Shown here one piece after another: positions 1 to 17,562 of a DNA stretch of 64,000 bases. Source of the DNA: Streptomonospora alba (GTDB lineage Bacteria; Actinomycetota; Actinomycetes; Streptosporangiales; Streptosporangiaceae). Numbering within the stretch: position 1 is the first letter of the stretch; every line of letters begins with the position of its first letter. The position numbers and the translations under genes were made by a program. The notes beneath the pieces were generated by a model, which did not search any database, was not told the origin of the DNA, and saw nothing but the letters and a program-made list of their open reading frames with translations. The DNA lies in contig NZ_JROO01000027.1 in the NCBI RefSeq assembly GCF_000826685.1, forward strand, positions 62,001-126,000, given 5' to 3'.

Positions 1-610
1 GCTTGGCCCGGTGGAACCGTGCGTAGAGTTCGGCCGCCGCGGATGTGGCGGGAGCCGGCTCCGGCTCCGGCCCCGGCTCCGGCCCCGGCTCCGGCTCCGG
101 CGTCAGCAGGCCCGGTGCGTGGGTGGCGTCGAGTTCGTCGAGTTGCAGCCGGCCTCCCGGGCGCAGCGTGCGCAGGAGTCGGGCGAGCACCTGCTCGCGC
201 TCCGGCAGGTGCATGAGCACCAGTCGCGCGTGGACCAGGTCGAAGGCCTCCTCGGGAAGCGGGTCGCGCGCGATGTCGTGGCGCAGCACCGCCATACCGG
301 CCTTCTGCGGCATGCGCACGGGCTTGACGTCGGTGATCACCACCCAACCGTCGGGAGCGACGCGCTGGGCCAGCCACACCCCGACGCTTCCGCCGCCGGC
401 CCCCACCTCCAGGCACCGCCAACCGGAGCCGACACCCGTCTGGGCGAGACGCTCGGTGGTCGTCGGATCGTAGGCCGCGGCCAGGCAGCTGTGCTGCTCG
501 CCGGCGTGGTCGCTGTCGTTGTCGAAGGCGTAGGCCGTTCCGCTGTCCGGCGCCGCCTCCCCCGGCGCCTCCGGAGCCGCCCCTACCGCTGTCTCCGCCG
601 CCTCTGCCAC
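1..610 (-). CDS. SAM-dependent methyltransferase, class I (C-terminus beyond window)
   Basis: This gene reads leftward and runs off the left edge, so only about 203 N-terminal residues are visible. A GTG start at 610 is preceded by a GGGGGAG ribosome site just after the stop of the upstream ligase gene (8-bp gap), so it is the last visible gene of the leftward operon. Residues about 67-80 (CLEVGAGGGSVGVWLA) are the glycine-rich SAM-binding motif I. The later segments ITDVKP, HDIARDPLPEEAFDLVHAR and LLRTLRPGGRLQL are the usual motif II-IV surroundings of ubiE-like methyltransferases. Near residue 180 a run of Pro-Glu and Pro-Gly pairs interrupts the fold, encoded by hexameric DNA repeats at about 54-102. 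The substrate cannot be told; by position it may methylate a cluster intermediate. Confidence 0.88.
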   Translation of the reverse strand, partial: MAEAAETAVGAAPEAPGEAAPDSGTAYAFDNDSDHAGEQHSCLAAAYDPTTTERLAQTGVGSGWRCLEVGAGGGSVGVWLAQRVAPDGWVVITDVKPVRMPQKAGMAVLRHDIARDPLPEEAFDLVHARLVLMHLPEREQVLARLLRTLRPGGRLQLDELDATHAPGLLTPEPEPGPEPGPEPEPAPATSAAAELYARFHRAK

Positions 611-618
611 GTCTCCCC

Positions 619-2391
619 CTACCTGCTGTGCTCCGGCGCGACCGCGCCACCGACCTCCGCCGCCGACGCCGCCGCCGGGGCCCTCGCGGTGCCCGCGGTG
701 CCCGCGGTGCCGGACGCATGCTCTGCACCGGAGGCTCCCCATTCGGCGAGCGTGCGGTGGCAGACCTTGCCCGTGGCGCCCAGCGGCAACTCACCCAGGC
801 GAAGGAGCACCTCCGGCAGCTTCGCGCGCTCCAGGCCGATCCCCTCCTCGAGGAAGGTGTTCAGCTCCGGCAGGCTCAGCGGCTCGCTGCCCTCGTCCTG
901 CACCACGCACGCGCACAGCCGCTCGCCCAGGTCCGCGTCAGGAACCCCCACGCACACCGCCTCGGCGACCGCCGGGTGCGCGGCGGCCAGCTGCTCCACC
1001 TCGCGCGGGCTGATCGAGTAGCCGCCGCGCTTGACGACCCGCTTGAGCCTGTCGATCACCCGCAGCGCACCGTCGGGCTCGAACCTGCCGCGGTCGCCGC
1101 TGCGCACCCAGCCGCCCTCGGCCCTGTAGCGCGCATCCAACTCGGGTGCGTTCACATAGCACAGCGGACTCATGGGGCCGCGCGCCCAGATCTCGCCCTC
1201 GCCGCCCGGCTCGGCGTCGCGCCCGTCGGGCCCCACGATGCGGATCTCGGCCACCGCCGGATCGGGCGGCCCGGTGACGCCGCCCGGCCGGGCGCACGCG
1301 CCGACGGGCGTGTGGCAGTTCATCCCGTCCGCGGACCCGTAGACGGTGAGCACCGGCACGCCGAACCGCTCGCGCGCGGCGTCGATCACGTCGGCCTCGG
1401 CCACCGCAGAACTGGTGACCACCGCACGCAGCGACCGCGTGTGCTCCTCCGCGAGACGGGCGTGGGCCGCCATCCGCCGCAGCAGGGTGGGCACGGCGAA
1501 GAGGTGGGTGGGCTCGTGCTCACCGACCGCGCGCAGCGCAGCGGCGGGATCGGAGCTTCCCGGCACGATCAGCGTTCCGCCCAGTCCCGCGAGTGTCACC
1601 GGGACGCCCAAGGAGCCGTAGGAGGAGGCCAGCGGCACCAGCACCAGGTTGCGCATGGGCACCGAGCCGTCGTGCAGCGCGGCGACGTAGTTGGCGCGCC
1701 CGCCCGCGAACGCGTTGTGCGAGTAGGCGATCATCTTGGGTTCGGACTCCGAGCCGGAGGTCACCAGGATGCGGGCGGGCGAATCCGGGTGCACGGGTAC
1801 GCGGGGTCCGTCGCCGTCGAACCCGGCGCGGGCGCCCTCCTCGGCGGCCGCGTCCAGCGGCACGGCACCGGCCGGCGTGCCGCGGGCGTCGCCGAGGGAG
1901 AACACCCGCCGCAGATAGGGCAGTTCCCCGCGCAGCCGCGCCAGCTCGGTGAGCGGGTCGGTGCGGCCGGAGGGGTCGCCCGCGATCACGGCGCCGGCGC
2001 GCGAGCGCCGCAGCAGCGCGGCCATACCGGCGCGCCCGCGCATGGCCGGATACGGCAGCGACACCGCCCCCACGGCAGCGACCGCCAGTTCGGCGGCGAC
2101 GGCCCGCCACCCGTCGGGCAGTTGGACGGCGATGACGTCGCCCGCGCCGGCCCCCGCCTCGGTCAGCGCGGCGGCGATCCCGCGCACGCGCGCGTCCAGG
2201 GCTGCGTAGTCGAGTGTGCCCTCGGGACAGGCGACGGCGTGGCGGTGCGGGTGGTCGCGCACTCGGCGGCGGAAGAGCGTGTAGAGGTCGGTGTCGGGGC
2301 AGTAGCCCTCGTCCACCCACCTGCGGCGCAGTCCGGGGGGCACGAGGTCGGCCAGCACGATCCCGTTGGCGGAGGTCCAGGCGTCGGTCAC
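619..2391 (-). CDS. AMP-dependent acyl-CoA synthetase/ligase (ANL superfamily)
   Basis: This 590-residue ANL-family adenylate-forming enzyme would activate a carboxylic acid as an acyl-AMP, probably passing it to CoA. The GTG start at 2391 overlaps the CoA-transferase stop (GTGA), showing translational coupling. The P-loop region near residue 210 reads TSGSESEPK rather than the usual TSGTTGxPK. The A5-like YGSADG, A7 SGDRGRF, A8 RLKRVVKRGGYSISPREVE and A10 lysine (ATGKVCHR, near residue 540) are present, so activity is plausible. It most resembles aryl or cyclohexenyl carboxylate ligases, but the true substrate is unknown. A low-complexity Ala/Gly/Thr tail of about 40 residues follows the catalytic lysine. 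It belongs to the leftward operon. Confidence 0.87.
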   Translation of the reverse strand: MTDAWTSANGIVLADLVPPGLRRRWVDEGYCPDTDLYTLFRRRVRDHPHRHAVACPEGTLDYAALDARVRGIAAALTEAGAGAGDVIAVQLPDGWRAVAAELAVAAVGAVSLPYPAMRGRAGMAALLRRSRAGAVIAGDPSGRTDPLTELARLRGELPYLRRVFSLGDARGTPAGAVPLDAAAEEGARAGFDGDGPRVPVHPDSPARILVTSGSESEPKMIAYSHNAFAGGRANYVAALHDGSVPMRNLVLVPLASSYGSLGVPVTLAGLGGTLIVPGSSDPAAALRAVGEHEPTHLFAVPTLLRRMAAHARLAEEHTRSLRAVVTSSAVAEADVIDAARERFGVPVLTVYGSADGMNCHTPVGACARPGGVTGPPDPAVAEIRIVGPDGRDAEPGGEGEIWARGPMSPLCYVNAPELDARYRAEGGWVRSGDRGRFEPDGALRVIDRLKRVVKRGGYSISPREVEQLAAAHPAVAEAVCVGVPDADLGERLCACVVQDEGSEPLSLPELNTFLEEGIGLERAKLPEVLLRLGELPLGATGKVCHRTLAEWGASGAEHASGTAGTAGTARAPAAASAAEVGGAVAPEHSR

Positions 2392-4313
2392 GGTGCGAAC
2401 TCCCAGGGTGAGCGGACGAATGCGGCGCCTTCGGTCTCCAGGACGCCGGCGAACCGGGGGTCGGCGGCCAGCGCCGCCAGGTCGGTGCACACGGGGACCG
2501 CGTCCAGCCCGGTGCCGCGCAGCCGTCCGGCGAGTTCGGCCGCGCCGCGGTCGCGGCAGTGCGCGGCTACGGCGGCGCCCGGGTCGCCGCCCGGGGCGAG
2601 GCCCAGCACGCCGGCGAGGCGCTCGGGGGCGCTGCGGGCGCACGAGCTGAGCACGAGGTGGCCGTCTCGGGTGGGCAGGGGCTCGTGCAGCGGCCCCCAC
2701 AGCGGGCGCCGGGCGCCGAGTCGCTGCCCGGGCCCCTTCCCCCCGCCGCCGGATACGGCCGAGGCCGTCAGCACTTCGGCGGCGGAGTGGAGGGAGGAGT
2801 CGACGCGGGCGCCGCCGTCGCCGCGGCAGCGCGCCAGCAGCGCGGCGAGGACACCCTCGGCGCTGACCAGGCCGCCCAGCACGTCGGTCAGTGTCATCAG
2901 CGAGGGCGCGGGCGGCTCGCCCCGCGGGCGCAGCAGCGCGCCCAGTCCACTGTGCGCCTGCACCAGGAAGTCGGTGCCCAGCGGTTCGACACCGCCCATG
3001 GCGGATCCGGCCCCTACGGCGCGGCCCCAGCCGCCGGCGTGGGCGTAGACGAGGCCCGGCCGCACCGCCTGCAGGTCGGCGGCGTCCAGCCCGAAGGAGG
3101 CGGCCTTGCCCGGTGCCCAGTTGTGCACGAAGACGTCGGCGCCGGCGACCAGCTCGCGAACCTCGTGCTGCCCGGCGGCGGACTTGATGTCGATCTCGAC
3201 GACCCGCTTGCCGCGGTTCAGCGCGAGGAAGCGGGCCGAGCAGGTGCCCACCGTCGGCGGCATCCACCGCAGGGGATCGCCGCCGGGCGGTTCGACACGG
3301 ACCACCTCCGCGCCGAGCAGCCGCAGCACGTGCCCGGCCAGCGGTCCCTGGACCCTCCGGGTGGACTCCACGACGACGAGGCCCTCCAGCGGGAGCGCCG
3401 CGCCGGCCGGGCGGGGCCGCGGCGGATCCCCCGGTTGCGCCGGCGTCTCGGGCGTGAGGCGCCACGGAGCGACGCCGCCGGGCCCGCCGGGTGCCGGCAT
3501 GTCGGCGCCCCCGCGGACGCGGACGAGGCTGATGCCTGCGGCCTGGGCGGCACCGGCGATCTCGTGGAACACGTGCGCGGCGGCGGCGCTGTGCAGTTCC
3601 GGCGGCAGCGGGCACACCGCGGTGGCGTAGCGGTGCAGGAAGGGGCGCCACCCGTCGGCGAGCGTGGTGCGGTCGGCGCCCAGCAGCGACCAGAACCGCT
3701 GCCAGGGCTCGGGATCGAACGCCTCGATCTCGAAGCGCACCCCGTCGGCGGAGGTGAACGGCGGTCCGCCGGGTATCCGCGGGTGCGGGGTGCTGTCACC
3801 GGAAGCGGTCGCGGCGGCCAGGTACTGCCCGACACTGAGCAGCGCGGCCTGGGCGACCGACGTTCGAACCCCGGTCGTGGCACCGCCTCGCATCCGCGCG
3901 ATCGCCGCGGCCAGTACCCCGTGGACGGCGAGCACGCCGCTCACCGCACCGGCGTAGTCGACTCCGAGCGGTCGGGGACGGCCGGCGGAGCGGCCGTGGA
4001 CGTGCATGATGCCGCAGGCGGCTTGGACGCCGGCCTCGTCGCCCAGCGGGAGGGCGAGCGGACCGGCCCAGCCGATGTCGCAGGTGATTCGGCCGTCAGG
4101 GGTGTCGAACAGCAGTCGGCCGGCGGAGTCGGGGCGCGGCTCGGCCTCCGGTTGCGGATCATCGCCGGAGGAGGGAGCCCGATCGGCTCCGAGGAGCCGG
4201 AGATGCCCCTCGGCCACTCGCGCCGCTACCGAGTCTCCCGAGCGCCCCGCGGTGAACTCCGCGAGCGGCGCTGCCGTGTCGCCGGCGGCGATGCTCTCCG
4301 AAGACAGCGTCAT
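2388..4313 (-). CDS. Two-lobed family III CoA-transferase (CaiB/BaiF type), N-half degenerate
   Basis: Family III CoA-transferases move CoA between acyl-CoA donors and carboxylates through an aspartyl-CoA thioester. The C-terminal half (about residues 310-641) is a recognisable CaiB/BaiF domain: LEGLVVVESTRRVQGPLAGHV, LLGAEVVRVEPPGGDPLR and, near residue 504, ARVDSSLHSA, where the Asp matches the catalytic one. The N-terminal half (about 60-300) looks like the middle and end of a second copy. Its equivalent motif near residue 150 reads GVRTSVAQAAL, with no Asp, so this half should be inactive. The usual family length is near 400 residues; this protein has 641. The ATG at 4313 follows AAGGAAG. 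It sits between two acyl ligases. Confidence 0.85.
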   Translation of the reverse strand: MTLSSESIAAGDTAAPLAEFTAGRSGDSVAARVAEGHLRLLGADRAPSSGDDPQPEAEPRPDSAGRLLFDTPDGRITCDIGWAGPLALPLGDEAGVQAACGIMHVHGRSAGRPRPLGVDYAGAVSGVLAVHGVLAAAIARMRGGATTGVRTSVAQAALLSVGQYLAAATASGDSTPHPRIPGGPPFTSADGVRFEIEAFDPEPWQRFWSLLGADRTTLADGWRPFLHRYATAVCPLPPELHSAAAAHVFHEIAGAAQAAGISLVRVRGGADMPAPGGPGGVAPWRLTPETPAQPGDPPRPRPAGAALPLEGLVVVESTRRVQGPLAGHVLRLLGAEVVRVEPPGGDPLRWMPPTVGTCSARFLALNRGKRVVEIDIKSAAGQHEVRELVAGADVFVHNWAPGKAASFGLDAADLQAVRPGLVYAHAGGWGRAVGAGSAMGGVEPLGTDFLVQAHSGLGALLRPRGEPPAPSLMTLTDVLGGLVSAEGVLAALLARCRGDGGARVDSSLHSAAEVLTASAVSGGGGKGPGQRLGARRPLWGPLHEPLPTRDGHLVLSSCARSAPERLAGVLGLAPGGDPGAAVAAHCRDRGAAELAGRLRGTGLDAVPVCTDLAALAADPRFAGVLETEGAAFVRSPWEFAP

Positions 4314-4362
4314 CGCGCTTCTTCCTTTCGGTCGGTCGGTTCGTCTTCATCTGCCGCCTCCT

Positions 4363-5988
4363 TCATTCGTCTGCCGCTGCGGGGCCGGCGGCACGCGGGT
4401 GGGGGATGCGGCGGGACGTGCCCAGCAGGCGGGCGCGCAGCTCCGGCCGGCGGACCTTGCCGGTACCGGTGCGGGGAAGGTCGTCCCAGCTCACCACCAG
4501 GGGTTCGGCCATCGGCGGAAGGTCGGCGGTGGCGCGGTGCCAGGTGTCCGGATCGAGCAGGCCGGACTCGGTGACCACCACCGGCAGGGGCGGCCCCTCC
4601 TTGGGGCGCAGGACGATGCACTCCAGCACCGCGGGGATCCGGTCGTCGACGACGTCCTCGACCTCCACGCAGCTCATGCCCTCCACGGAGTCGATCTCGC
4701 GGTCGAGTATCCGCACCGAACCCCCGCGGGTCAGCACGCCGATGTCCTCGGTGTTCCACCAGCGCCCCAGCGCCTTCGCCGCCCACCGCTCGGGCTCGCC
4801 GACATAGCCCAGCCCCAGGGCCCCGGTGCGCGCCAGGACGAGTCCGGGCCGCCCGCGCGGCAGGGGCCGCAGGGTCGCGGGGTCGACCACGCTGATCCGG
4901 GTTCGCCCCGGTACGGGGCGGCCGAGATCGCGGGTGGTGGGGCGGCGCTCGCCCTCGGCGGCCACAGCCTTGCGGGTCAGCAGCCGGAAGGTGAGCGGCC
5001 CGGTCTCGCTTTGGCCCCAGCCCTGCAGCCACACCGGGCGGCGGTGCCCGCTGGCCGCGAGGAACGTGCGCACGGCCGGCGGGTGCACGGCGTCGAAGGT
5101 GCTGATGTAGAGCCGCACCCTGTGGAACACGTTCTCCGCGGCGTCGGCGCGGGCCAACCGCTGCCAGCGGACGTAGGTCGCCGGCAGCGCCTCCAGCGTG
5201 GTGGGCGGATGCTCGCGCAGGAACGGCTCGGCGTCGGCGGGTGCATGGTCGGCGATGAGGCCGACCTCGCGCGGGCACAGCCAGAACACACTGGCCGTCC
5301 AGGCGAACGCGCGGCCGTGCACGAAGGAGGTCGCCGCGGCGACGCTGTCGTCGGGGCGGCTGCTGAGCACCGGCCAGCGGTGGGCCTCGAAGCCGATGAG
5401 GCGGCGCACGATCGTGGCGCCGGAGTGGGCCACCAGCTTGGGGGTGCCGGTGGTGCCGGAGGTGTGCACGATGATCAGCGGTTCGTCGTCGCGGCGCCGA
5501 CGCGGCGCGGGCGCGCGGCGGCCGCGGACGTCGGCCAGCGGCACCGCGCCCGCAAGGGTCTCGGGCGGGCCGTCGAGCAGCAGCAGCCGCCGGGCGGTCG
5601 GTGCGATCCCAGCGGCGGCGAACCGCTCGGCGGCGGCGCCGTCGAGGACGGCGAGCTCGGGCTGCAACCGCGCCAGAAGGGTGCCCAGGGCGGGCGGGGC
5701 GAGGTGGGCGGCGATGGGAGCGGGCACCGCGCCGATGCGCACGGCCGCCATGGCCAGGAGCACGATGTCCCAGTGGTTGTCCTTGACGATGGCGACGCGG
5801 TCACCGGGCCCCGCGCCCGCGGCGGCCAGCCAGCCTGCCGCGTCCTCCACCAGCCCGGCGAGGTCGGCGACTCCGTGGGCGACCGCGGCGCAGGGGTCGA
5901 TGTCCAGCGGGCGGCTGAAGTAGGCGGTGGTTGGGCTGCGCCGGTCGGCGAGGGTGTCGAACAGCGTGGCGACGTCAAGCCGCTTCAT
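4363..5988 (-). CDS. AMP-dependent synthetase/ligase (ANL superfamily)
   Basis: This is a second 541-residue adenylate-forming enzyme of the cluster. It keeps the canonical P-loop TSGTTGTPK near residue 176, a GWGQSETGP substrate-loop motif, WNTEDIG in place of the usual SGD motif, and the A10 lysine in RTGTGKVRRPELR near residue 508. The hinge region (LDREIDSVEGMSCVEVEDVV) departs from the common GRxxDxIKxxGxxIxPxEVE, suggesting a divergent subfamily. The ATG at 5988 overlaps the upstream FAD-enzyme stop by four bases (ATGA) and has AAGGA upstream. A 49-bp gap separates it from the CoA-transferase. The acid it activates is unknown. Confidence 0.86.
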   Translation of the reverse strand: MKRLDVATLFDTLADRRSPTTAYFSRPLDIDPCAAVAHGVADLAGLVEDAAGWLAAAGAGPGDRVAIVKDNHWDIVLLAMAAVRIGAVPAPIAAHLAPPALGTLLARLQPELAVLDGAAAERFAAAGIAPTARRLLLLDGPPETLAGAVPLADVRGRRAPAPRRRRDDEPLIIVHTSGTTGTPKLVAHSGATIVRRLIGFEAHRWPVLSSRPDDSVAAATSFVHGRAFAWTASVFWLCPREVGLIADHAPADAEPFLREHPPTTLEALPATYVRWQRLARADAAENVFHRVRLYISTFDAVHPPAVRTFLAASGHRRPVWLQGWGQSETGPLTFRLLTRKAVAAEGERRPTTRDLGRPVPGRTRISVVDPATLRPLPRGRPGLVLARTGALGLGYVGEPERWAAKALGRWWNTEDIGVLTRGGSVRILDREIDSVEGMSCVEVEDVVDDRIPAVLECIVLRPKEGPPLPVVVTESGLLDPDTWHRATADLPPMAEPLVVSWDDLPRTGTGKVRRPELRARLLGTSRRIPHPRAAGPAAADE

Positions 5989-7331
5989 CGCAGGGTCCTT
6001 CCCGGGCGGACTGGGTGCGTGGACGTGGGGCGCTCGGCGGCGTGAGCGAGCAGGCGGGCGGCGGTGACCTGGGCGGAGGCGACCGCGCCCTCGCTGCAGG
6101 GGCGCAGCTGGGTCCAGTCGCCGGCGTAGTCGACAGCGCGCGCCGGGCGGCCGCGGAACGTGCGGTGCTCCCGCAGCGCCGCGGGGGTGGCCTCGGGCAG
6201 GCCGTGGGGGAACCGGTGGACGTGAACCCGGCGGACCAGGCTGCGCAGCCCCGGCAGGTAGCGTTCGGCGCGCTCGGCCAGGGCGGCGGTGGCCTCGGCG
6301 TCGCCGGCGCCCATGAGTGCGGCGGTGGCAGGCGGTGCGGCGATCAGCGAGACCAGGCCGCGTCCGTCGGGGGCGCGGTCGGGGTGCTTGTTGTGGTCGA
6401 GGGTGATCACGTTGAGCAGGTCGTCCTCGGCTGCGGGGATCAGCGTGGCGAAACCGCGCATGCCGCCGGCGGTGGCGGGCCTGCGCGCCAGCGCCAGGCT
6501 CACCCGCAGCATCGGCGCGAACGTGCACGATGCGAGGAACCCGCGCTCGTCGGCCGGTGCGCCGGGGTGGAGCCGCGCGGCCACCGGCGCGGGCACGGCC
6601 AGCACGGCAGAGCGCGCGGTGACCGTGCCGCCGTCGAGGGTGAGCCGGGCGCCGCCCGGCACCGCGGCGACCCTGTGAACCGCGGTACCGGTGGATACCT
6701 GCAGACCCGCGGCGAGCCGACGCGCCAGGGCGTCCATGCCGCCGCGGTAGGTACGCCAGTGCGCGGTGCTGCCGGTGGAGCGCAGGTGCGCCAGCAGCGG
6801 GGCCGCCGCGGACCGCTCGGGGCGCCAGCCGAAGAAGCCGGCGGCGAGCGGGTAGAGGAACCGTTCGCGCACCTCAGGGCTGCGGGACGCGGCGAACTCC
6901 TCCAGCGTCACCGGGTCCGCCGGTTCGCCGACGTCCCCGCCGGAACCCGCCTGCAGTCGCACCAGCTCCAGCCGAGCGCGCGGGGAGAGCCCGCCTCCGG
7001 TGAGCAGCCCCAGCGGCCGGCCGGCGTGGGGACGGGCACGGCCGCCGCGCCACAGCGAAAGGGCGCCGGGTACACGCGATACCTCGGCTGCCATTCCGAG
7101 CTCGCGGATCAGCGACCACGTAGCGGTGTAGCCGGCGGAGGGGAGCATCTCGGCGCCGGTGTCGATGCGCCAGCCGTCGCTGTGCAGCGTGCGCATCCTG
7201 CCGCCGACGGCGTCGGCCGCCTCGAACACGTGGACGCCGCGGCCCGCGCGGCCCAGGGCGTGGGCGGTGGCGAGTCCCCCGACGCCCGCACCCACGACGG
7301 CGGTGTCGATGTCGGGTGTCGCGGGCGTCAC
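5985..7331 (-). CDS. FAD-dependent amine oxidase/protoporphyrinogen-oxidase-like enzyme
   Basis: A 448-residue flavoprotein of the amine oxidase / protoporphyrinogen oxidase / phytoene desaturase superfamily. Residues 9-40 carry the FAD Rossmann motif (VVGAGVGGLATAHAL, then the acidic strand end VFEAADAVGGRM). The GGM-DALARRLA segment near residue 210 and the C-terminal FAD-contacting stretch (YAGDW, then SEGAVASAQVTA) complete the fold. Members oxidise C-N or C-C bonds or isomerise polyenes; here the substrate is unknown, although the adjacent UbiA gene suggests a prenylated one. The start is GTG at 7331 and a 73-bp gap separates it from UbiA. It lies in the middle of the leftward operon. 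Confidence 0.85.
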   Translation of the reverse strand: MTPATPDIDTAVVGAGVGGLATAHALGRAGRGVHVFEAADAVGGRMRTLHSDGWRIDTGAEMLPSAGYTATWSLIRELGMAAEVSRVPGALSLWRGGRARPHAGRPLGLLTGGGLSPRARLELVRLQAGSGGDVGEPADPVTLEEFAASRSPEVRERFLYPLAAGFFGWRPERSAAAPLLAHLRSTGSTAHWRTYRGGMDALARRLAAGLQVSTGTAVHRVAAVPGGARLTLDGGTVTARSAVLAVPAPVAARLHPGAPADERGFLASCTFAPMLRVSLALARRPATAGGMRGFATLIPAAEDDLLNVITLDHNKHPDRAPDGRGLVSLIAAPPATAALMGAGDAEATAALAERAERYLPGLRSLVRRVHVHRFPHGLPEATPAALREHRTFRGRPARAVDYAGDWTQLRPCSEGAVASAQVTAARLLAHAAERPTSTHPVRPGRTLR

Positions 7332-7404
7332 GGGCCACCGCCCTGCTGTTCGCGCCGGGAGGCGGCGCGCTTCCGCTGCGCGGAGCCCCGCCCCGCCCCG
7401 GCGG

Positions 7405-8397: not shown

Positions 8398-8405
8398 GGA
8401 CGCTC

Positions 8406-9560: not shown

Positions 9561-10801
9561 GCCGCCCCCTTCCCGGTGTAGAAGCGGGTGATGAGCGCGC
9601 AGACCCGGTCGATCCGGTCCACGGAGAGGTCGGGGTACAGCGGCAGCGCCAGCGCGCGGGCGCAGGCGGCCTCGGCGTTGGGGAAGTCGCCCTTGCGGTA
9701 GCCCAGGTGGGCGAAGCAGGGCTGCAGGTGCAGCGGCACCGGGTAATAGGTCTCGGTGCCCACGCCGTTGCGGGCGAGGTGGTCGGCCAGGTCGTCGCGC
9801 CGGTCGAACTCGGCCAGGTAGACGTAGAAGACGGGGTCGGCCGTCGCCCAGCGCTGCACCACGGTGGGCAGGCGCAGGACTCCGGGGACGTCGCGCAGCC
9901 GCTCGGTGTAGGCGGCGGCGAGCTCGGCGCGCCGGCGGATGTCGGCGGCCAGGTGCGGCAGCTTGGCCAGCAGCACCGCCGCCTGGAGGTCGTCCATCTT
10001 GCTGTTGTGGCCCACGAGGCTGGTGGGCGTGGCGATGCGGGTGAAGTCGGCTACTGTGTCGCCGCGGCGCCCGTGGTGGCGCAGCGCGGCCGCGGTGTCG
10101 GCGATCTCCGGGTCGTCGGTGATGACCGCGCCGGCGTCGCCGATGGCCCCCAGGGTCTTGGCGGGGAAGAACGAGAGCACCCCGCCGGCGCCGAGCAGGC
10201 CGGCGTGCACCCCGTTCCAGCGCATCCCGATCGCTTCGGCGCTGTCCTCGACGAGGGTGATCCGGCGGCGGTCCGCCAGCGCGCGCAGCTCCTCCATGTG
10301 GGCCATCTGGCAGAACAGGTGGACCGGCATCAGCGCCCGGGTGCGACCGGTGACCGCGGCCTCGGCGCAGGCGGGATCGACGGCGTAGGTGACCGGGTCG
10401 ATGTCGGCGAAGACCGGGCGGCCGCGGGCGAGGGCGACCGAGGAGCCCGACGCGATGAAGCTGAACGCCGGCACCACGACCTCGTCGCCGGGCTGCAGCC
10501 CCGCCGCGCGCAGCAGCAGCACGAGCGCGTCGGTGGCGGAGTTGACGCCGACGATGTGGCGGGCGCCGGTCCACTGCGCGAGCGCGGCCTGGAACTCGGC
10601 GACCTTGCCTCCATGGGAGAACTTGCCGGTGTCGAGGACGTCGCCGCAGTGGCGGCGGATGTCGGGCCACAGCCGCGCGAAGGTCTCCCGCTGGCTGAAG
10701 AACGGGATCGACGGCGGAGCCGCCTCCTCCGGCGGGAGCGGGGCCGGATCGCGGGCTGCGGCGGGCACGGTCGAAGCGGTGGCGGGAAAGGGGGGCTTCA
10801 T
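9557..10801 (-). CDS. DegT/DnrJ/EryC1/StrS-family PLP aminotransferase (first copy)
   Basis: First gene of the leftward operon, 414 residues. It has a Pro/Ala-rich N-terminal extension of about 30 residues before the family start IPFFSQRETFARLWPDI. The catalytic lysine lies in FFPAKTLGAIGDAGA near residue 215, and TYYPVPLHLQPCFAHLGY is the family's C-terminal substrate loop. Sugar aminotransferases of this family take nitrogen from Glu or Gln and place it on a keto-sugar or keto-cyclitol. The partner Gfo/Idh dehydrogenases across the divergent promoter could supply such a ketone. The ATG at 10801 follows GAGGGTGA. Confidence 0.91.
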   Translation of the reverse strand: MKPPFPATASTVPAAARDPAPLPPEEAAPPSIPFFSQRETFARLWPDIRRHCGDVLDTGKFSHGGKVAEFQAALAQWTGARHIVGVNSATDALVLLLRAAGLQPGDEVVVPAFSFIASGSSVALARGRPVFADIDPVTYAVDPACAEAAVTGRTRALMPVHLFCQMAHMEELRALADRRRITLVEDSAEAIGMRWNGVHAGLLGAGGVLSFFPAKTLGAIGDAGAVITDDPEIADTAAALRHHGRRGDTVADFTRIATPTSLVGHNSKMDDLQAAVLLAKLPHLAADIRRRAELAAAYTERLRDVPGVLRLPTVVQRWATADPVFYVYLAEFDRRDDLADHLARNGVGTETYYPVPLHLQPCFAHLGYRKGDFPNAEAACARALALPLYPDLSVDRIDRVCALITRFYTGKGAA

Positions 10802-11301
10802 ACGTCACCCTCGGGTTAATTCGGTCCGGACGAAAACGATTCGAACTACGGGGGGCCGTGTTTTCCGGTGACCGGTTTTCCAGATCCGCCGCCATTATGC
10901 CCCGCACCCTCTGCGGCTAACCGGAGAATCCGCGGAATCCGAGCAGCCGCCGCCGGTGCACGGCACCCTGCACGGCGATTTCCCCTCATTCCGACACAGC
11001 ACTGACAGAAACCGCACTTCACCGCGCTTCACCGCAAGCCAGGAAGCAAATGCACAGATTCAATCGCACCGGGGATCCACAGAGCGAAATCAAAGGTTGA
11101 CAACCGCATCACCGCGGCGTGAACCTGGATTCATTCGCACCGCACCCCCGGACGCCCCCCAAAAAATGCGCAATCTCAGAACGCCATGCGCATGACCGAA
11201 TCCCGTTCGCCAATGCGGAGCGTGAATTCCCTGGCCGCCTGTGCGCTGCACCCTCCCGCGCGCACTCGGAGGAGAACGAAACAGGAGGTGATGCACCCGC
11301 C
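10802..11301. promoter_or_regulatory. Divergent promoter region of the biosynthetic cluster
   Basis: About 500 bp separate the two divergent arms, and the base composition is visibly less GC-rich than the flanking genes. It must hold the promoters for both operons. A perfect TTGACA (11097-11102) faces right, but no good -10 element follows at 16-19 bp. An open reading frame from 11119 runs in frame into the rightward gene, but its codons look non-coding. I found no clear inverted repeat that would mark an operator. Confidence 0.6.
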
Positions 11302-12423
11302 ATGCTGCACACGCTCGTCGTCGGTCTGGGCCGTGCGGGGCGCGGCCTGCACCTGCCGGCGTTGGCGCGGGCCGGAGCCCTTGCCGGGCGCCGCAGCGTG
11401 TTCGCCCCCGGTCCCGCCCTGTCCTTCGACCCCCAGCCTGCGGCCGCCCCCGCCCCCGCGCCGCCCGCAGGCGCACACCAGGTCGCATCGCTGCGCGCAG
11501 CCGCCGCGGCCGCCGACCCCGCCCGCACCGTCGTCCACCTGTGCACCCCGCCCGGCGTGCGCACGGCGCTGCTGGAGGAACTGGCCGAGCTGGGCTACCG
11601 CCGCATCCTGGTCGAGAAACCGCTGGCCGCCGACGAGCGCGAGCTCGCCGCCGTACTGCGCCTGCGCCGCCGCTTCGATCTGCGGATGGCCGTGGTCGCC
11701 CAATGGCTGACCAGTGCCCTCACTCACCGCCTGCGCGCCGCCGCGCGCGACGGGCGCCTGCACGGGCTCGGCTCCCACGGCGGCGACGGAGCGTCACGTT
11801 CCGCGCCCGACCTGGGCCGCCTGCGCAAGGTTTCCGTCGTCCAGCGCAAACCCCGGTTCCTGCGCTCGCTGACCAGCAGAGCCCATCCCACCGTCTTCGA
11901 CGTCGAGCTCCCCCACGCGGTCGGAGTGGCGCTGGCCCTGGCCGGCGGCGCACGGGTGGAGTCCGCCTCCTGGAGCGACATGGCCCTGGGCAACGTCGAG
12001 ATCCCCCACTTGGGCCAGGCCCGTCTGGTGCTGGACCACCATTCGGGCGCCACCACCGAAGTATTCTCCGACCTCACCGCGCCCACCCGCGAGCGCCGCA
12101 TCACGCTGGACTTCGATCGCGGCACGCTGGTCGGCCACTACCCCTGCAGCGAGGACGACGACACCGCCCAGCTGCGCGCCGCCACCGAGGACGGGTCCCT
12201 ACACCTGGTCTTCCACGACGACGCGCTGGCCGACTTCATGCTCGGCGCCTACGAGCACTTCGCCGGACTGCGCCGCCTCCCCGAACAGGAGGCCTTCGGC
12301 CTGCAGGTGCGTGCAGTGCGCCTGCTCACGGCCGCCAAGGCGCTGTGCGCCGATCCGCCCGCCCCGACTGCGGGCGGCGGGCTCCGCGGAGAGGGGATGA
12401 TCAGCCATGCCGACCCCGCCTGA
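11302..12423 (+). CDS. Gfo/Idh/MocA-family NAD(P)-dependent oxidoreductase (first copy)
   Basis: Begins the rightward operon; 373 residues. The ATG at 11302 sits about 10 bases after AGGAGGTGAT, a near-perfect anti-16S match, so longer upstream starts were not used. N-terminal TLVVGLGRAGRGLHLPAL is the Rossmann nucleotide-binding motif, and ILVEKPLAA is the family's EKP signature with the catalytic lysine. The C-terminal domain is the usual alpha/beta substrate domain but somewhat divergent. Members oxidise or reduce sugar or cyclitol hydroxyls. It overlaps the next gene by 17 bp. The likely product would be a ketone for a DegT aminotransferase (inference). Confidence 0.84.
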   Translation: MLHTLVVGLGRAGRGLHLPALARAGALAGRRSVFAPGPALSFDPQPAAAPAPAPPAGAHQVASLRAAAAAADPARTVVHLCTPPGVRTALLEELAELGYRRILVEKPLAADERELAAVLRLRRRFDLRMAVVAQWLTSALTHRLRAAARDGRLHGLGSHGGDGASRSAPDLGRLRKVSVVQRKPRFLRSLTSRAHPTVFDVELPHAVGVALALAGGARVESASWSDMALGNVEIPHLGQARLVLDHHSGATTEVFSDLTAPTRERRITLDFDRGTLVGHYPCSEDDDTAQLRAATEDGSLHLVFHDDALADFMLGAYEHFAGLRRLPEQEAFGLQVRAVRLLTAAKALCADPPAPTAGGGLRGEGMISHADPA

Positions 12424-13354
12424 ACAGCGCCCCGGCCCCGTCCTGGAACCGGCCGCCGACCTGCCCGGGCCCGCACCCGGAATCGCCTTCGCCGGCATCG
12501 GCGACGAAGCAGGCGGCGACCCGGCCGACCAGCTGGACGCGCTCGAACGGCTCGGTTGGCGGTCCCTGGAGGTGCGCACCGTCGGCGGCCGACCCGTCGC
12601 CGACCTCGACGACGCCGCGTTCTCCGGATTGGCCGCCGCCCTGGACGAGCGCGGCATGTCCGTGTGCTGCCTGGACTCCGGCATCGGCAACTGGGCCCGG
12701 CCGATCACCGGCCCCTTCGACACCGATCTGCGCGAGCTGGAGATCCTCGCCGCGCGCTGCGCCGCCGTGGGCGCCCGCGCCGTGCGCATCATGACCTACC
12801 CCGACGACGGCCTCGGCGAGCGCGAGTGGCGCCGCCGCGCCGTGGCGCGCGTGCGCAGACTGTGCGCCGCCGCCGAACACCGCGGCATCGTCCTGCTGGC
12901 CGAGAACTGCGCCGGGTGGGCCGCCGACGACGCCGACCGCATGCTCGACCTGCTCGACACCGTGGCGAGCCCTGCCCTGGGACTGCTGTTCGACACCGGC
13001 AACGGCGTCGCCCACGGCTACGACGCCCCCGCGCTGCTCGCCGACATCGCCGACCGTGTCGCCCACGTGCACGTCAAGGACGCAGTGCCCGTCCCCGGCG
13101 GCGAACCCGCCTACACGGTGCCGGGGCGCGGCAGCGCGGGCGTCGCCGAGTGCCTGCGGCTGCTGCTGGAGCGGGGGTATCGCGGTACCTGGTCGATCGA
13201 GCCGCACCTGTCGCTGCTCCCCCACCGGGCCGCCGGGACCGGCGACGTCGACGCCTTCGTCGCCGCCGGCGAGGCGCTGCGACCGCTGGCCGCCGAGGCC
13301 GTGGCCGCCTCCGCGCGCCCGGAGCCCGCCGCGGAAACGGGGACGCCGCAGTGA
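12407..13354 (+). CDS. Sugar phosphate isomerase/epimerase-like TIM barrel (AP_endonuc_2 fold)
   Basis: A 315-residue xylose-isomerase-like TIM barrel. The metal-binding pattern is intact: Glu in LLAENC, Asp in LLFDTGN, the His-rich strand AHVHVKDA and the Glu of TWSIEPHL. Relatives include inosose dehydratase, hydroxypyruvate isomerase, ketose 3-epimerases and C-deglycosylases. Several of these act with Gfo/Idh dehydrogenases on 3-keto sugars, which fits the two such genes in this operon. Start ATG at 12407 with GGAGAGGGG upstream; its stop overlaps the next gene (GTGA). The precise reaction is unknown. Confidence 0.85.
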   Translation: MPTPPEQRPGPVLEPAADLPGPAPGIAFAGIGDEAGGDPADQLDALERLGWRSLEVRTVGGRPVADLDDAAFSGLAAALDERGMSVCCLDSGIGNWARPITGPFDTDLRELEILAARCAAVGARAVRIMTYPDDGLGEREWRRRAVARVRRLCAAAEHRGIVLLAENCAGWAADDADRMLDLLDTVASPALGLLFDTGNGVAHGYDAPALLADIADRVAHVHVKDAVPVPGGEPAYTVPGRGSAGVAECLRLLLERGYRGTWSIEPHLSLLPHRAAGTGDVDAFVAAGEALRPLAAEAVAASARPEPAAETGTPQ

Positions 13355-14685
13355 GCGCCGTGCCGCTGGAGGCCGGCGACCGCCGACTGCTGCTGCGGCT
13401 GCTGGAACTGCCCACGGCCGGCCGTCTGGAGACCGGCCCCGGCGCGGCGCCGCCGCGGTTGCGCGAGGCTCAGGACGCCTACGCCGACGCCGCCGCAGGC
13501 ATCGGTTTCACCTCCGTCCACCACGCGGCGCCCCAGCCGCGCGTCCTGGAGCGCTCCGGCGTCCCGCTGGCCGCACGCGAGGCCGCCGACGCACACCCGG
13601 GCTTTTTGGACGCCGAGCCCAGTCTGGTGCTGCGACTGGGGCCGCCGCGCCCCCGCGCGGCCACCGCCATGTTCAACGTCCACCTCGACACCGTCGCGGG
13701 CTGGGAGCCGCCGCGCTTCGACGGCACCGACGTGCACGGCCGCGGCGCCGCCGACGCTAAGGGCCCCGCCGTCGCACTGCTGGCGGGTGTGCGGGCGGCC
13801 CTGCGCAGCGACCCCTCGATCGGAACCGACTCCGGCATCGGCGTGCTGATCCAGGCGGTCTCCGGCGAGGAGGGCGGCGCCATGGGCGCCTTCGGCACCC
13901 GCCCGCTGGTCGAGCAGGGCTTCGTCGGGCGGCTGAACCTGTTCTGCGAACCCACGGGGCTGCGTTACCTGCCTCGCTCCACCGCCGCGATGACCGCCCG
14001 GGTGCGGGTGGCCGGGAGCGACGCGATCGACGACAGGCCGGGCGAGGGCCACAACGCCACGGTGCTGCTCGGCTTCCTCGCCCAGCATCTGGCCGGGGCG
14101 CTGTCGGCCCGCGCCGAAGGCGCCGAGCGCGCGTGCGTGGCCGGGCTGAACACCGGCACCCTGCACAACAGGGTCTACGGCACCGGGGAACTGCTGCTGA
14201 ACCTGCCCTACGCCGACGCCGCGGCCGGGCACCGCCTCGGCGCTGCGGTGGAGACCGCTCTGGACGAGGGCCTGGCGGAGTTCTCCGCCCGCTTCGCCGA
14301 CGCCCCGGCCTTCGCGCTGACCGCGGCCGAGGCCCGCGGCGTCACCCGCCTGGAGTGGCTCAAGCGCGGCCTGCCGACCCTCGACTGCGCCGACCCGTGG
14401 ATGCACCGCCTACTGGGCGAGGACGCGGGCCTGCCCCTCTGGCCCCCCGACGAACAGGCCTTCACCTGCGACGCCATCTGGATGGACGGCGTCGCCGGAG
14501 CCGCCGCCGCGGTGCTCGGCCCCGGTGACCTGGCCGCCAACAACGCACACGCCGACGGCGAATTCGCCTCGCTGGCCGAGCTGGGGGGCTTCGCCGACGC
14601 CGTCGCGCGCGTACTCACCGCCTTCGCCCGCGACCACCGCGCCGGCGCCACGCCCGCACCCCACCCGAGGGGGCAGGCGCGGTGA
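13351..14685 (+). CDS. M20-family metallopeptidase/amidohydrolase (ArgE/DapE/ACY1-like)
   Basis: A 444-residue protein with the di-zinc M20 plan. FNVHLDTVAGWEPPRF supplies the first His-Asp, GRGAADAKGP the bridging Asp, SGEEGGAMGAF the catalytic Glu pair, NLFCEPTG the next metal Glu, and ANNAHADGEF the C-terminal His. It contains a dimerisation-type insert. These enzymes hydrolyse N-acyl amino acids, succinyl-diaminopimelate or carrier-amino-acid amide bonds. In a biosynthetic operon such a hydrolase may remove a protecting acyl group (inference). The start GTG at 13351 overlaps the preceding stop. No LysW-type carrier protein is visible nearby. Confidence 0.85.
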   Translation: MSAVPLEAGDRRLLLRLLELPTAGRLETGPGAAPPRLREAQDAYADAAAGIGFTSVHHAAPQPRVLERSGVPLAAREAADAHPGFLDAEPSLVLRLGPPRPRAATAMFNVHLDTVAGWEPPRFDGTDVHGRGAADAKGPAVALLAGVRAALRSDPSIGTDSGIGVLIQAVSGEEGGAMGAFGTRPLVEQGFVGRLNLFCEPTGLRYLPRSTAAMTARVRVAGSDAIDDRPGEGHNATVLLGFLAQHLAGALSARAEGAERACVAGLNTGTLHNRVYGTGELLLNLPYADAAAGHRLGAAVETALDEGLAEFSARFADAPAFALTAAEARGVTRLEWLKRGLPTLDCADPWMHRLLGEDAGLPLWPPDEQAFTCDAIWMDGVAGAAAAVLGPGDLAANNAHADGEFASLAELGGFADAVARVLTAFARDHRAGATPAPHPRGQAR

Positions 14686-14930
14686 TCCCGACCGCGAAAG
14701 CGGGGGCAGCGGCGTCCGCCCCCAGGCGGCAGCACACCCGGGAATCACCCCACCCCTCGCCCCGGAGGCCGCGGCGGTGGGCGCAGCCCGCCCTGCCAGC
14801 GAGCCGACGTGCCGCCGAGCGGCGGTGCACCGTGCAGAACCCGTCCTCACGCTCGGCGGCGCGGCAAGAGCACGCGACGCGCAGCGCCTCCCGTCTCTCA
14901 TGCACCCGACCACGAAAGGCGGTATGCACC
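14686..14930. other. 245-bp non-coding gap inside the rightward operon
   Basis: The reading frame from a GTG at 14682 stays open across this gap and joins the next gene. Its translation is Arg/Pro/Ser-rich and unlike any Ldh2 N-terminus, so I treat it as untranslated. It contains a short hairpin-forming pair (GGGGGC near 14703, GCCCCC near 14720) and could hold a secondary promoter. Nothing else was recognised. Confidence 0.5.
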
Positions 14931-16124
14931 GTGGCAGCCCCAGACACCCGGCGCTCGGCACCCGCGCGCGGGCCTGACCTCCGCACCACGGAAGTCCGCC
15001 CGACAAGCCCCGGCGACGGCGGTCCCCGCGTCGACGCCGCCGAACTGCTGTCGTTCGCCGAGCGCGTCCTCACCTCCTACGGCCTGCCCACCGAACGCGC
15101 GCGGCCCGCCGCCGAGGCGCTGTGCTACGGCGACCTGTGCGGTCACCCCTCCCACGGCTCGGCCAACATCTCCCGCATCTACCTGCCCGCTCTGGCCGAC
15201 GGCCGAATCGACCCGTGCGCCGAACCGCGCACCTACGCCGACCGCGGCGCCGCCGTCCTCGTCGACGCCCGCCGCGCGCCGGGCCTGTGGCACGCAAGCG
15301 CGGCCATGGACACGGCTGTGGAGCGGGCGCAGCGGTACGGGGTCGGGTTGGTGTCCGTGCGCGGCGCCACCCACTTCGGCTGCGCCGGCCACCACGCCGC
15401 GCGGGCGGCCGAGCGCGGCATGATCGGGATCGTCGCCGCCAACTGCGGGCGCCAGCGCATCGCGCCCCCACCGGGCGGACGACTGCCGCTGCTGGGCACC
15501 AACCCGCTGAGCGTCGCCGCGCCCGCCGTGCCCGGCCGCCCGTTCGTGCTCGACATGAGTACGACGGCGGCGCCCACCGGCCGGGTGCGTGAGGCTGCGC
15601 GGTCGGGGCGCGACGTTCCCGCGGGCTGGCTGGCCGACTCCAACGGTGCGCCCGTCACCGACGCCACCGCCTTCGACCGCGGCGAGGCGCACCTGCTGTG
15701 GCTGGGCGCGGGCGAAGCCGCGCGCTCGGGCGGCGCCTACAAGGGGTTCGGGCTGGCTCTGGCAGTGGAGGTGCTGGCCGCGCTGCTGCCCGGCGCCGGG
15801 CTCGGGCCGGCCGACGGCGAGGAGGGCGAGGATGACGTGGCGGGCCGCCGCGACGACGACATCGGATTCATCGCCGCGGCCGTGGCCCCGAACCGGTTGC
15901 GTGAGGGCTTCGGCGCCGACGCCCGAGCCCTGTTCTCCGCGGTGCTCGCCTCTCCGCCGGCCGATCCCGACGAACCGGTGCGCTATCCCGGTTGGCACGA
16001 GGCCGAGCTGGCGCGTCGGCACCGAAGGGAGGGGGTTCCGCTGCCGCAGGCGCTGCTGCAGGAGTTGGCCGAGGTCGCCGACACCGCCGGAACCGCGCCG
16101 CCTTCCGTGATCGGGGGCCGCTGA
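14931..16124 (+). CDS. Ldh2-family malate/lactate/ureidoglycolate-type dehydrogenase
   Basis: NAD(P)-dependent 2-hydroxyacid or imine dehydrogenase of the Ldh2/YlbC/MdH family (397 residues against about 340-360 usual). The signature segments are ALCYGDLCGHPSHGSANISRIY near the N-terminus, VSVRGATHFGCAGHHAARA with the catalytic His, LGTNPLSVAAP, and YKGFGLALAVEVLAALLPGA. Relatives reduce pyruvate, oxaloacetate, Delta1-piperideine-2-carboxylate or other keto or imino acids. The start GTG at 14931 is chosen for the upstream AAAGGCGG and homology. Its stop touches the ATG of the next gene (TGATG). A keto-acid or imino-acid step in the pathway is implied. Confidence 0.85.
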   Translation: MAAPDTRRSAPARGPDLRTTEVRPTSPGDGGPRVDAAELLSFAERVLTSYGLPTERARPAAEALCYGDLCGHPSHGSANISRIYLPALADGRIDPCAEPRTYADRGAAVLVDARRAPGLWHASAAMDTAVERAQRYGVGLVSVRGATHFGCAGHHAARAAERGMIGIVAANCGRQRIAPPPGGRLPLLGTNPLSVAAPAVPGRPFVLDMSTTAAPTGRVREAARSGRDVPAGWLADSNGAPVTDATAFDRGEAHLLWLGAGEAARSGGAYKGFGLALAVEVLAALLPGAGLGPADGEEGEDDVAGRRDDDIGFIAAAVAPNRLREGFGADARALFSAVLASPPADPDEPVRYPGWHEAELARRHRREGVPLPQALLQELAEVADTAGTAPPSVIGGR

Positions 16125-17134
16125 TGCCCGACGCCCCGCTGCGTATCGGCGTCATCGGGCTGGGCTTCATCTCCCGGTTCTACGTGGCCGCGCTGAAACG
16201 CCTGCCGTCGCTGGAGCTGGCGGCGGTGTGCGACCGCGACCCCGAGGCGCTGACGCCACTGCGGGGCCGCGTCCCCTGCTATCTGGACCACCGCGATCTG
16301 CTGAGCGACGCCGGACTGGACGCGGTGGTCGTCAGCGCCCCCAACCACCTGCACGCCACGCTGTGCCGCGACGCCCTGGCCGCAGGTGTACCCGTATGCG
16401 TGGAGAAGCCCCTTGCCACCCTGCCCTTCGACGGCGCGGCGCTGCAGGCCGAGGCCCGGCTGCGCGGCGTCACCCTGTTCACCGCGTTCCACCGCCGCTA
16501 CAACCGATCGGTGCGCGCCCTGGTCGACCGCCTGCCGCGCGGGGCTCCGGTGGCCGCCGTGCGCGTGCGCTACCTGGAGCGCATCGAAGACCACATCGGG
16601 CGCGACTCCTGGTACCTCGACCCGGACCGGTGCGGGGGCGGCTGCGTCGCCGACAACGGCCCCAACGCCTTCGACCTGGCCCGGATGCTGCTGGGCGAGC
16701 TGTCGGTGACCGAGGCGCACATCGCCCGCGACGCCGAGGGGATCGACCGGCGGGCGTGGGTGCGGCTGCGCTCCCGGCCTCGCGCCACGGCGGCGGTGGA
16801 GCTGGACTGGTCCTACGGGGGCGAGTTGAAGGACGTGTGGGTGCGGCTGGCCGACGGGCGCACCGACTCCGCCGACATGCTCGGCGGGTACTCGGAGTTC
16901 AAGGAGTCGCTGTGGCACGAGTACGCGGAAGTGCTGCGCGACTTCGAGCACCGCCTGCGCAGCCCCGTCGCCCAGGTGGACGAGGCGGGGCCTGCCGCGT
17001 TGGGCCTCGTGGACGCGGCCTACACGGCCGCACCCCCGACGGGGGCCGGCGATCGGGAGCCGGCGCCGCCGGAAGCGGAGGCGGAGGCTGCGACGGAGGC
17101 CGCGGCGGCCGACACGGACGGAGGGAACCGGTGA
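16124..17134 (+). CDS. Gfo/Idh/MocA-family NAD(P)-dependent oxidoreductase (second copy)
   Basis: A 336-residue dehydrogenase, more canonical than the first copy. IGVIGLGFISRFYVAALKRL is the Rossmann motif, VCVEKPLATLP the EKP catalytic lysine motif, and the middle segment NGPNAFDLARMLLGE matches the family's substrate-site Asp region. Family members oxidise hydroxyls of sugars, inositols or UDP-sugars. The ATG at 16124 overlaps the Ldh2 stop by one base. The last 30 or so residues are a low-complexity Ala/Glu/Asp tail. Two such enzymes in one operon suggest two redox steps or an oxidation/reduction pair. Confidence 0.87.
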   Translation: MPDAPLRIGVIGLGFISRFYVAALKRLPSLELAAVCDRDPEALTPLRGRVPCYLDHRDLLSDAGLDAVVVSAPNHLHATLCRDALAAGVPVCVEKPLATLPFDGAALQAEARLRGVTLFTAFHRRYNRSVRALVDRLPRGAPVAAVRVRYLERIEDHIGRDSWYLDPDRCGGGCVADNGPNAFDLARMLLGELSVTEAHIARDAEGIDRRAWVRLRSRPRATAAVELDWSYGGELKDVWVRLADGRTDSADMLGGYSEFKESLWHEYAEVLRDFEHRLRSPVAQVDEAGPAALGLVDAAYTAAPPTGAGDREPAPPEAEAEAATEAAAADTDGGNR

Positions 17135-17562
17135 TCGGCGAGGACGGAGACAAGCGGATGGTCGCGGGCGCGGTGGTCAAGGTTCTGATCCACCGGCGCG
17201 AGGAGCGCGGCATGGAGCTGCTGCCGTTCGCGAGCCGGTGCGTGCGGGCCGGGGAGGTGCACGAACTGGTCGCCACCGACCACACCGAAACCGCAGAGGG
17301 AGCGCGGATCGACAGGGTGGCGTTCCTCGGGTTCGCCGAGATCGCCTGCGCGGGCGTCGTCGACCGCGGCGACGAGGTGCGGGTGAACGGGCGGGTGGTG
17401 GGCACGGTCCTGGGGTTCGACGGATGCCACTTCCCCAACCACTACAACATCCTCGTACACACCCCGGCGCCGCTGACGGGAGCCGAACTCGGCCTCGCCC
17501 CCGAAGACCGGGTGGAGTTCACGCAGGTGCGCGAGGAGGCCCCTGTGCTCAGCACCGGATAA
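17131..17562 (+). CDS. Small conserved-looking protein of unknown function, end of rightward operon
   Basis: A 143-residue soluble protein that I cannot assign to a family with confidence. The GTG start at 17131 overlaps the upstream stop (GTGA), so it is co-translated with the dehydrogenase. It has alternating hydrophobic strands, a polar His-rich loop (VHELVATDHTE) and a striking segment FDGCHFPNHYNILVH containing Cys, three His and Asn. These could form a metal or substrate site in a small beta-barrel (inference from pattern only). Its codon use matches its neighbours. It may be an accessory subunit of an operon enzyme. Confidence 0.75.
   Translation: MIGEDGDKRMVAGAVVKVLIHRREERGMELLPFASRCVRAGEVHELVATDHTETAEGARIDRVAFLGFAEIACAGVVDRGDEVRVNGRVVGTVLGFDGCHFPNHYNILVHTPAPLTGAELGLAPEDRVEFTQVREEAPVLSTG

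Follow-up and report, generated by a model that had tools for sequence, protein, structure and literature searches.

Gene content and layout

We analysed a 64,000-nucleotide stretch of the Streptomonospora alba genome, here called the window (G000:C32:62001-126000, from a 5.9 Mb draft in 110 contigs), which opens with a biosynthetic-type cluster of 14 genes arranged as two divergent operons in positions 1-17562. Genes were called from codon usage with a simple caller, and domains were assigned by Pfam at E ≤ 0.001. Genes A-H lie on the minus strand, in the order H, G, F, E, D, C, B, A leftwards from the divergent gap, and I-N on the plus strand (Table 1). Neighbouring genes overlap by 4 bases at five junctions (B/C, D/E, G/H, J/K, M/N), by 1 base at L/M and by 17 bases at I/J, and A and B are spaced by 8 bases. 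The inventory of 14 genes and named domains given in an earlier, sequence-only reading of this DNA was recovered in full by Pfam and our own gene calls, and so was its remark that no familiar core enzyme is present, as none of the 14 proteins matched a Pfam model for polyketide synthases (PKS), nonribosomal peptide synthetases (NRPS), terpene cyclases or sugar-phosphate cyclases. The fourteen-gene extent held less well: gene A crosses the left window edge, with its C-terminal part outside the window (to G000:C32:61708), and an EF-hand gene often joins the cluster.

Table 1. Features of the divergent cluster and its conserved neighbour, in window positions.
Feature	Positions	Strand	Basis
A: S-adenosylmethionine (SAM) methyltransferase, 300 aa	1..610 in window, start 610	-	Pfam Methyltransf_11 3.6e-12
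B: acyl-CoA-ligase-type AMP-binding enzyme, optional	619..2391	-	Pfam AMP-binding 8.5e-53 + AMP-binding_C
C: CoA-transferase family III, 641 aa, optional	2388..4313	-	Pfam CoA_transf_3 2e-70
D: adenylate-forming ligase, candidate N-acylating enzyme	4363..5988	-	Pfam AMP-binding 3.8e-45
E: FAD amine-oxidase/HpnE-like oxidoreductase	5985..7331	-	Pfam Amino_oxidase 4.1e-37
F: UbiA-superfamily prenyltransferase	7405..8397	-	Pfam UbiA 6.6e-11
G: DegT aminotransferase 2	8406..9560	-	Pfam 3.4e-89
H: DegT aminotransferase 1	9557..10801	-	Pfam 1.2e-104
H/I divergent intergenic gap, 500 bases, probable (predicted) promoters	10802..11301		
I: Gfo/Idh-type dehydrogenase 1, start uncertain, reading frame open from 11119	11302..12423	+	Pfam 1.9e-5; 12-row alignment
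J: xylose-isomerase-like TIM barrel	12407..13354	+	Pfam AP_endonuc_2 3.2e-31
K: M20 amidohydrolase	13351..14685	+	Pfam Peptidase_M20 1.4e-9
L: Ldh2-family dehydrogenase, start uncertain	14931..16124	+	Pfam Ldh_2 2.9e-96
M: Gfo/Idh-type dehydrogenase 2	16124..17134	+	Pfam 2.2e-22
N: DUF6917, small beta-rich protein	17131..17562	+	Pfam 1.3e-55
EF-hand calcium-binding protein, conserved neighbour and fifteenth gene	17894..18421	-	Pfam EF-hand_7 4.3e-22

Linkage of the arms, the seven-gene cassette and its neighbours

Searching 84,980 species genomes for UbiA with short exact patterns, an approach limited to close relatives, gave 13 loci. Twelve of them show the two arms in the divergent order of the window; the exception, L006, stops at a contig edge, and DUF6917 lies on a separate contig of that genome. 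When the 341 genomes of the family were searched with a profile of F, 119 had a match, and strong matches (E ≤ 1e-47, two fragments left out) were found at 61 places in 56 genomes. DUF6917 was found in 53 of the 341 genomes, counting one place per genome. In 47 of these, a strong F shared the contig with DUF6917, at a distance of 3.6-30.7 kb; three were split between contigs and three (G398, G616, G647) had no strong F, and DUF6917 was absent from six F-positive genomes of the set. From a part of the family matches, 33 stretches were fetched, comprising two duplicates of L005 and L006, eight with F paralogues without a DegT pair, three with DUF6917 without F, and 20 that represent 19 loci, L047 and L048 being one genome. 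These 19, together with L004-L017 and the window, formed a non-duplicate set of 34 loci from 13 genera, chosen for having F and H.

The two arms are one conserved cluster. Given that these loci were chosen for F and H, the presence of G in 34 of 34 and of I-M in 32 of 34 indicates that the grouping is not due to chance; the latter count becomes 33 when L079, a continuation of L004 that holds I-N, is included, and L006 ends at its contig edge. DUF6917 was called in 29 of the 34 loci, and in 33 after adding L008 (tblastn), fusions to M in L052 and L065 and a fusion to DXS in L079. The possibility that the arms are unrelated in other genomes, raised with the sequence-only reading, was checked and the linkage stood: 33 of 34 loci had both arms, and in 11 of them the arms shared a strand, each time with the gene order I-J-K-L-M-N-EF-hand-H-G-F-E-D-C-B and thus with the EF-hand gene between N and H. 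Arm-to-arm distances between loci were correlated (r = 0.88 over 32 loci, with none of 2000 permutations as high), a value to which shared species ancestry contributes.

Membership of the remaining genes was more variable, with D in 33 loci, E in 30, A in 25, the EF-hand gene in 24, B in 18 and C in 17, so that the CoA-transferase and first ligase, counted as members in the earlier reading, belong to the cluster here but are not universal. The nine loci without a separate A include five one-frame B-A fusions (L037:2157-4661, L038:2047-4560, L042:15520-18048, L058:1888-4392, L069:14626-17388) and three whose stretches stop within B or at its end (L060-L062); in L047, none was found. L004, L047 and L071 have two D-like genes each. 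At the eight fetched loci without a DegT pair, the F paralogues shared 32-49% identity with window F, and two of these loci (L064, L066) lie at contig ends.

Protein searches of 72,556 plasmids for cassette relatives recovered relatives of J, K and I in three Rhizobium plasmids, with DUF6917 on none of the three. The region examined, from strain T136 (L080:7320-19561, NZ_CP088011.1), is an operon in the order ectB, Gfo, DegT, DegT, TIM, M20, Ldh, Gfo, EgtD-like methyltransferase, MFS and ATP-grasp, with neither UbiA nor DUF6917. Reciprocal best hits between the window and T136 were one-to-one for all seven genes concerned, namely two DegT, two Gfo/Idh, TIM, M20 and Ldh2, at identities of 47% for H, 44% for J, 42% for M, 37% for each of K, L and G, and 34-36% for I. 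The G pairing was the weakest by margin, its T136 partner fitting H almost equally (37 vs 33%). Tree building placed the first rhizobial DegT with H (SH-aLRT 92) and separate from three further DegT proteins. These seven genes, I-J-K-L-M plus H-G, resemble a portable cassette that supplies a diamino building block; this product may be acylated by the ATP-grasp ligase in Rhizobium and decorated by UbiA and D in actinobacteria.

A second architecture, in which the cassette stands with other finishing genes, was found in L047/L048, L050, L051, L052, L065 and L004/L079. Isoprenoid-supply genes lie alongside the cassette in five of these six loci, L052 showing none: LytB and a polyprenyl synthase in L048, L050 and L051, a polyprenyl synthase alone in L065, DXS in L050, L051 (629.6 bits, above the equivalog cut-off of 466) and L079, and GcpE in L051 and, as the start of a gene, in L050. 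Because the G684 locus also has KS-AT-ACP, glycosyltransferase, P450 and acyl-CoA dehydrogenase genes, that cluster may be larger or composite. The window genome has six polyprenyl-synthase matches, all on other contigs. A recurring cluster in L049, L053, L054 and L068 combines an F-paralogue UbiA with DXS, GcpE and a large LuxR-type regulator, without a DegT pair, and is joined by PPS and LytB in three of the four. A mevalonate pathway set is present on the Streptomyces NBC_00490 plasmid (NZ_CP107870.1, L094:9158-15575), with SAM-recycling genes further along.

Among 396 genomes across the phylum, DUF6917 was found in the window genome only, and open-licence full-text papers yielded nothing on this family. 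Its predicted structure is beta-rich, with a best predicted local distance difference test (pLDDT) score of 84 among five models ranging from 51 to 84; against the PDB, Foldseek gave no match at E ≤ 0.001, the best VIA Z was 4.4, and nothing matched convincingly. As for an analogy with the C-glycoside deglycosylase (DgpA/B/C) operon, which likewise combines Gfo and TIM enzymes with a small partner protein (DgpB fold), DgpB was not among the structure matches listed. The fusions place DUF6917 at the C-terminus of M in L052 (2967-4289) and L065 (17619-18962), and at the N-terminus of DXS in a Streptomyces plasmid (L079:8031-10358, 775 aa), the latter offering a handle on a protein family without an assigned function. 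In L055, L057 and Thermomicrobium roseum (L081), where DUF6917 stands outside the cluster, its neighbourhood includes thiamine-diphosphate enzymes that resemble acetolactate synthase; the four scanned neighbours in L056 were not thiamine-diphosphate enzymes, one being a Gfo/Idh protein. We treat the possible connection of DUF6917 with thiamine-diphosphate enzymes as a lead rather than as a finding.

Just left of the cluster, a single 1346-aa frame (L002:13976-18016, equivalent to G000:C32:55976-60016) encodes histidine-kinase and then MMPL transporter domains, and adjoins a response regulator and a SARP-type regulator. Family-2 encapsulin shell genes and a prenyl synthase lie near the cluster in six of eight Actinokineospora loci (Pfam on one member per family), with two shell genes in five of the six and one, at the stretch end, in L014; in the window genome, two tandem family-2 shell genes followed by a polyprenyl synthase are on another contig (G000:C46:55995-59297). 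We dropped the encapsulin link, since encapsulins are present in 289 of the 341 family genomes, which makes the co-occurrence uninformative. An Actino-pnp cis-regulatory RNA (Rfam RF01688) at window positions 50095-50161 on the minus strand is an ordinary feature.

Enzyme clues, proposed product and competing readings

Both DegT proteins keep the catalytic Lys in 34 of 34 loci each, and both scored best against 2oga, which we take to be the desosamine (sugar) 3-aminotransferase DesV; WbpE, QdtB and an entry for a scyllo-inositol transaminase were among those that followed. H scored 118.6 bits against 3-amino-5-hydroxybenzoate (AHBA) synthase, compared with 246.5 against 2oga, and the Pfam model of dehydroquinate (DHQ) synthase had no match among the 14 proteins. 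The best NCBIfam model of J was IolE (inosose dehydratase; 42.5 bits, cut-off 290) and that of M was IolG (inositol 2-dehydrogenase; 62 bits, cut-off 355). In J, residues E166, D196, H222 and E265, presumably a metal site, are invariant in 12 of 12 alignment rows, and the predicted structure (pLDDT 87.9) has a normal fold close to many sugar epimerases and dehydratases. A role for J as an aromatising dehydratase found no discriminating support in the fold search, where epimerases, IolI, IolE, 3-keto-glucal hydratase and AsbF matched about equally (Z 24-26). M has Asn in 32 of 32 loci at the position that we take to be that of the usual catalytic His, with Lys and Asp kept, and its chemistry may therefore be unusual.

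Both Asp-rich motifs of F (D82, D83, D89, D92; D224, D228) are invariant in 14 rows, and the only solved structure matched by its profile at E ≤ 0.01 was UBIAD1 (E 0.0018). F is probably not the housekeeping copy, given that the window genome encodes three further UbiA proteins, together with just one further full-length DegT. E was best matched by the HpnE model (71.4 bits, cut-off 283). For D, a diazotase assignment was rejected because the NCBIfam match is weak (68.5 vs 975 bits).

With slightly better than even confidence, we read the cluster as a modular pathway to a prenylated, N-acylated diamine, that is, an amino-meroterpenoid; we infer every chemical step, the identity of the block and the order of the steps. 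The seven-enzyme cassette would make a polyhydroxylated diamino building block. In this scheme, I and M would each turn a hydroxyl of the ring or sugar into a ketone, J would epimerise, isomerise or dehydrate beside the ketone, H and G would install one amino group each, K would remove an amide and L would perform a further redox step. As the block, we favour an inositol-derived diaminocyclitol that may have been aromatised, a preference based on IolE and IolG being the best models of J and M, both far below their cut-offs. F would then add a prenyl chain, A would methylate, E would oxidise and D would couple an acyl group to an amine, with B and C, where present, making a CoA thioester; N may assist M and, in relatives, DXS. 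The actinobacterial block is probably prenylated by UbiA, methylated and N-acylated. An amine-bearing block is suggested by two DegT proteins nearest to keto-sugar and inositol transaminases with their Lys conserved throughout, by the rhizobial ATP-grasp enzyme and by the paired D-like genes, and prenylation by the invariant Asp-rich motifs of F and the isoprenoid-supply genes of the second architecture. The general idea of the sequence-only reading, an aminated sugar or cyclitol joined to an activated acid and a prenyl chain, fits these data and gains support from the rhizobial cassette and from the isoprenoid-supply genes of relatives, with the product itself a proposal. A bolder version, which we regard as doubtful, is that the cassette represents an undescribed route common to two phyla, from inositol to an aromatised diamino ring without shikimate or polyketide chemistry, which actinobacteria would prenylate to a new class of amino-meroterpenoids, and that DUF6917 is a new partner domain coupling this route to thiamine-diphosphate enzymes such as DXS.

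Several observations weigh against the proposed pathway. The inositol route is weak, given the distance of J and M from the IolE and IolG cut-offs and the tied fold search for J, and it is hard to see where M20 and Ldh2 would act on the way from inositol to a diamine. In the tree, the second DegT of T136 had a long branch and no settled position. F-type UbiA proteins appear to serve other pathways also, as judged from the eight F-paralogue loci without a DegT pair. Finally, UDP-glucose-dehydrogenase-like genes, found near six of 15 loci plus two more, suit a nucleotide sugar. This last point favours an explanation that ranks close behind the cyclitol, one that we consider a minority possibility: the same modular logic with an open or nucleotide-linked aminosugar or aminosugar acid as the block (e.g., from N-acetylglucosamine or UDP-glucuronate), where M20 would strip a pre-existing N-acyl group and Ldh2 would act on a 2-keto acid. 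The best scores of H and G against 2oga, with WbpE and QdtB close, agree with it, as do related epimerase genes in L004 and L071 and the lack of another evident amide substrate for M20 in the core. However, no UDP-glucose-dehydrogenase-like gene occurs in the rhizobial operon or in the fetched stretches of the 11 one-strand loci, and aromatic rings or lipid phosphates are the usual acceptors of UbiA enzymes.

We think it rather unlikely that the cluster encodes an already known pathway with an assigned product, in MIBiG or a paper. A cluster whose DUF6917 gene occurs in 53 of 341 family genomes is not rare, and actinomycetes have been much mined, but we found no described pathway or product with this gene set in the open-licence full-text papers searched, and none for DUF6917. 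Less probable still is a cell-bound specialised lipid or quinone rather than a secreted compound: the distant likeness of F to UBIAD1, the EF-hand protein that travels with the cluster and the lack of an exporter within the 14 genes would suit such a product, whereas the three other UbiA proteins in the genome, the patchy distribution of DUF6917 across the phylum, and the P450, glycosyltransferase, SnoaL, LuxR- and SARP-type regulator and MMPL genes added in some relatives or flanks argue against it. Highly improbable, and largely refuted, is the idea that the arms are unrelated neighbouring operons of which the plus arm is catabolic. While Gfo/Idh, TIM, M20 and Ldh2 families are common in sugar catabolism, the arms stay together in all but one of the 34 loci, 11 loci have them on one strand, and in Rhizobium the DegT pair is inserted within the Gfo-TIM-M20-Ldh2-Gfo order.

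The recurrence of the cluster in 13 actinobacterial genera of the sample, with no product found, makes it a practical target for compound-class discovery. That Actinomycetota and Rhizobium both have the cassette, each with its own finishing enzymes, points to an amino building block that can be reused.

Comparison with known systems

Among the closest systems is the Rhizobium sp. T136 plasmid operon, a separate pathway that has the seven-gene cassette in common with the window; where T136 has ectB, an EgtD-like methyltransferase, MFS and ATP-grasp, the window has UbiA, the FAD oxidase, AMP ligases and DUF6917 instead. Oxidation by a Gfo/Idh enzyme followed by DegT amination is known from the streptamine, spectinomycin, kanosamine and WbpB/WbpE-type pathways. 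The window has the same oxidation-amination pairing as these aminocyclitol and aminosugar pathways, with two of each enzyme, but its 14 genes include no cyclase, kinase, phosphatase or glycosyltransferase, and TIM, M20, Ldh2, DUF6917 and UbiA are extra. Clusters of the 2-deoxystreptamine type have a 2-deoxy-scyllo-inosose synthase, a model without a match among the 14 genes, and the AHBA cluster has an AHBA-synthase-type DegT and an aminoDHQ synthase, neither of which was found among the 14 genes. J and M, as given above, fall below the equivalog cut-offs of the myo-inositol iol enzymes IolE and IolG.

By kind, the locus resembles a UbiA-dependent meroterpenoid cluster, having a UbiA protein with both Asp-rich motifs for which prenylation of a small non-lipid acceptor is predicted. 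BE-40644 from Actinoplanes is a farnesylated, valiolone-derived compound in whose biosynthesis an enzyme of the UbiA superfamily is believed to attach the prenyl chain to a unit derived from a cyclitol (PMC5133447, PMC4044012). As described there, its pathway starts with a sugar-phosphate cyclase (EEVS), in contrast to the window, where no such model was found among the 14 genes, and the passages on BE-40644 in these sources make no mention of DegT pairs or of an arm like I-N. The ebo operon has been proposed to encode an isoprenoid-cyclitol pathway with a UbiA-superfamily protein and a xylose-isomerase-like TIM barrel (PMC5133447). From that account, the UbiA and TIM-barrel superfamilies alone are common to ebo and the window: the EboD cyclase, EboB hydrolase and EboF phosphodiesterase that accompany EboC and EboE, and EboA too, lack counterparts in the 14-gene set, and the six Ebo proteins described in that paper include no aminotransferase. 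As far as these descriptions go, BE-40644 and the proposed ebo product are precedents for a UbiA-installed prenyl chain on a cyclitol-derived unit.

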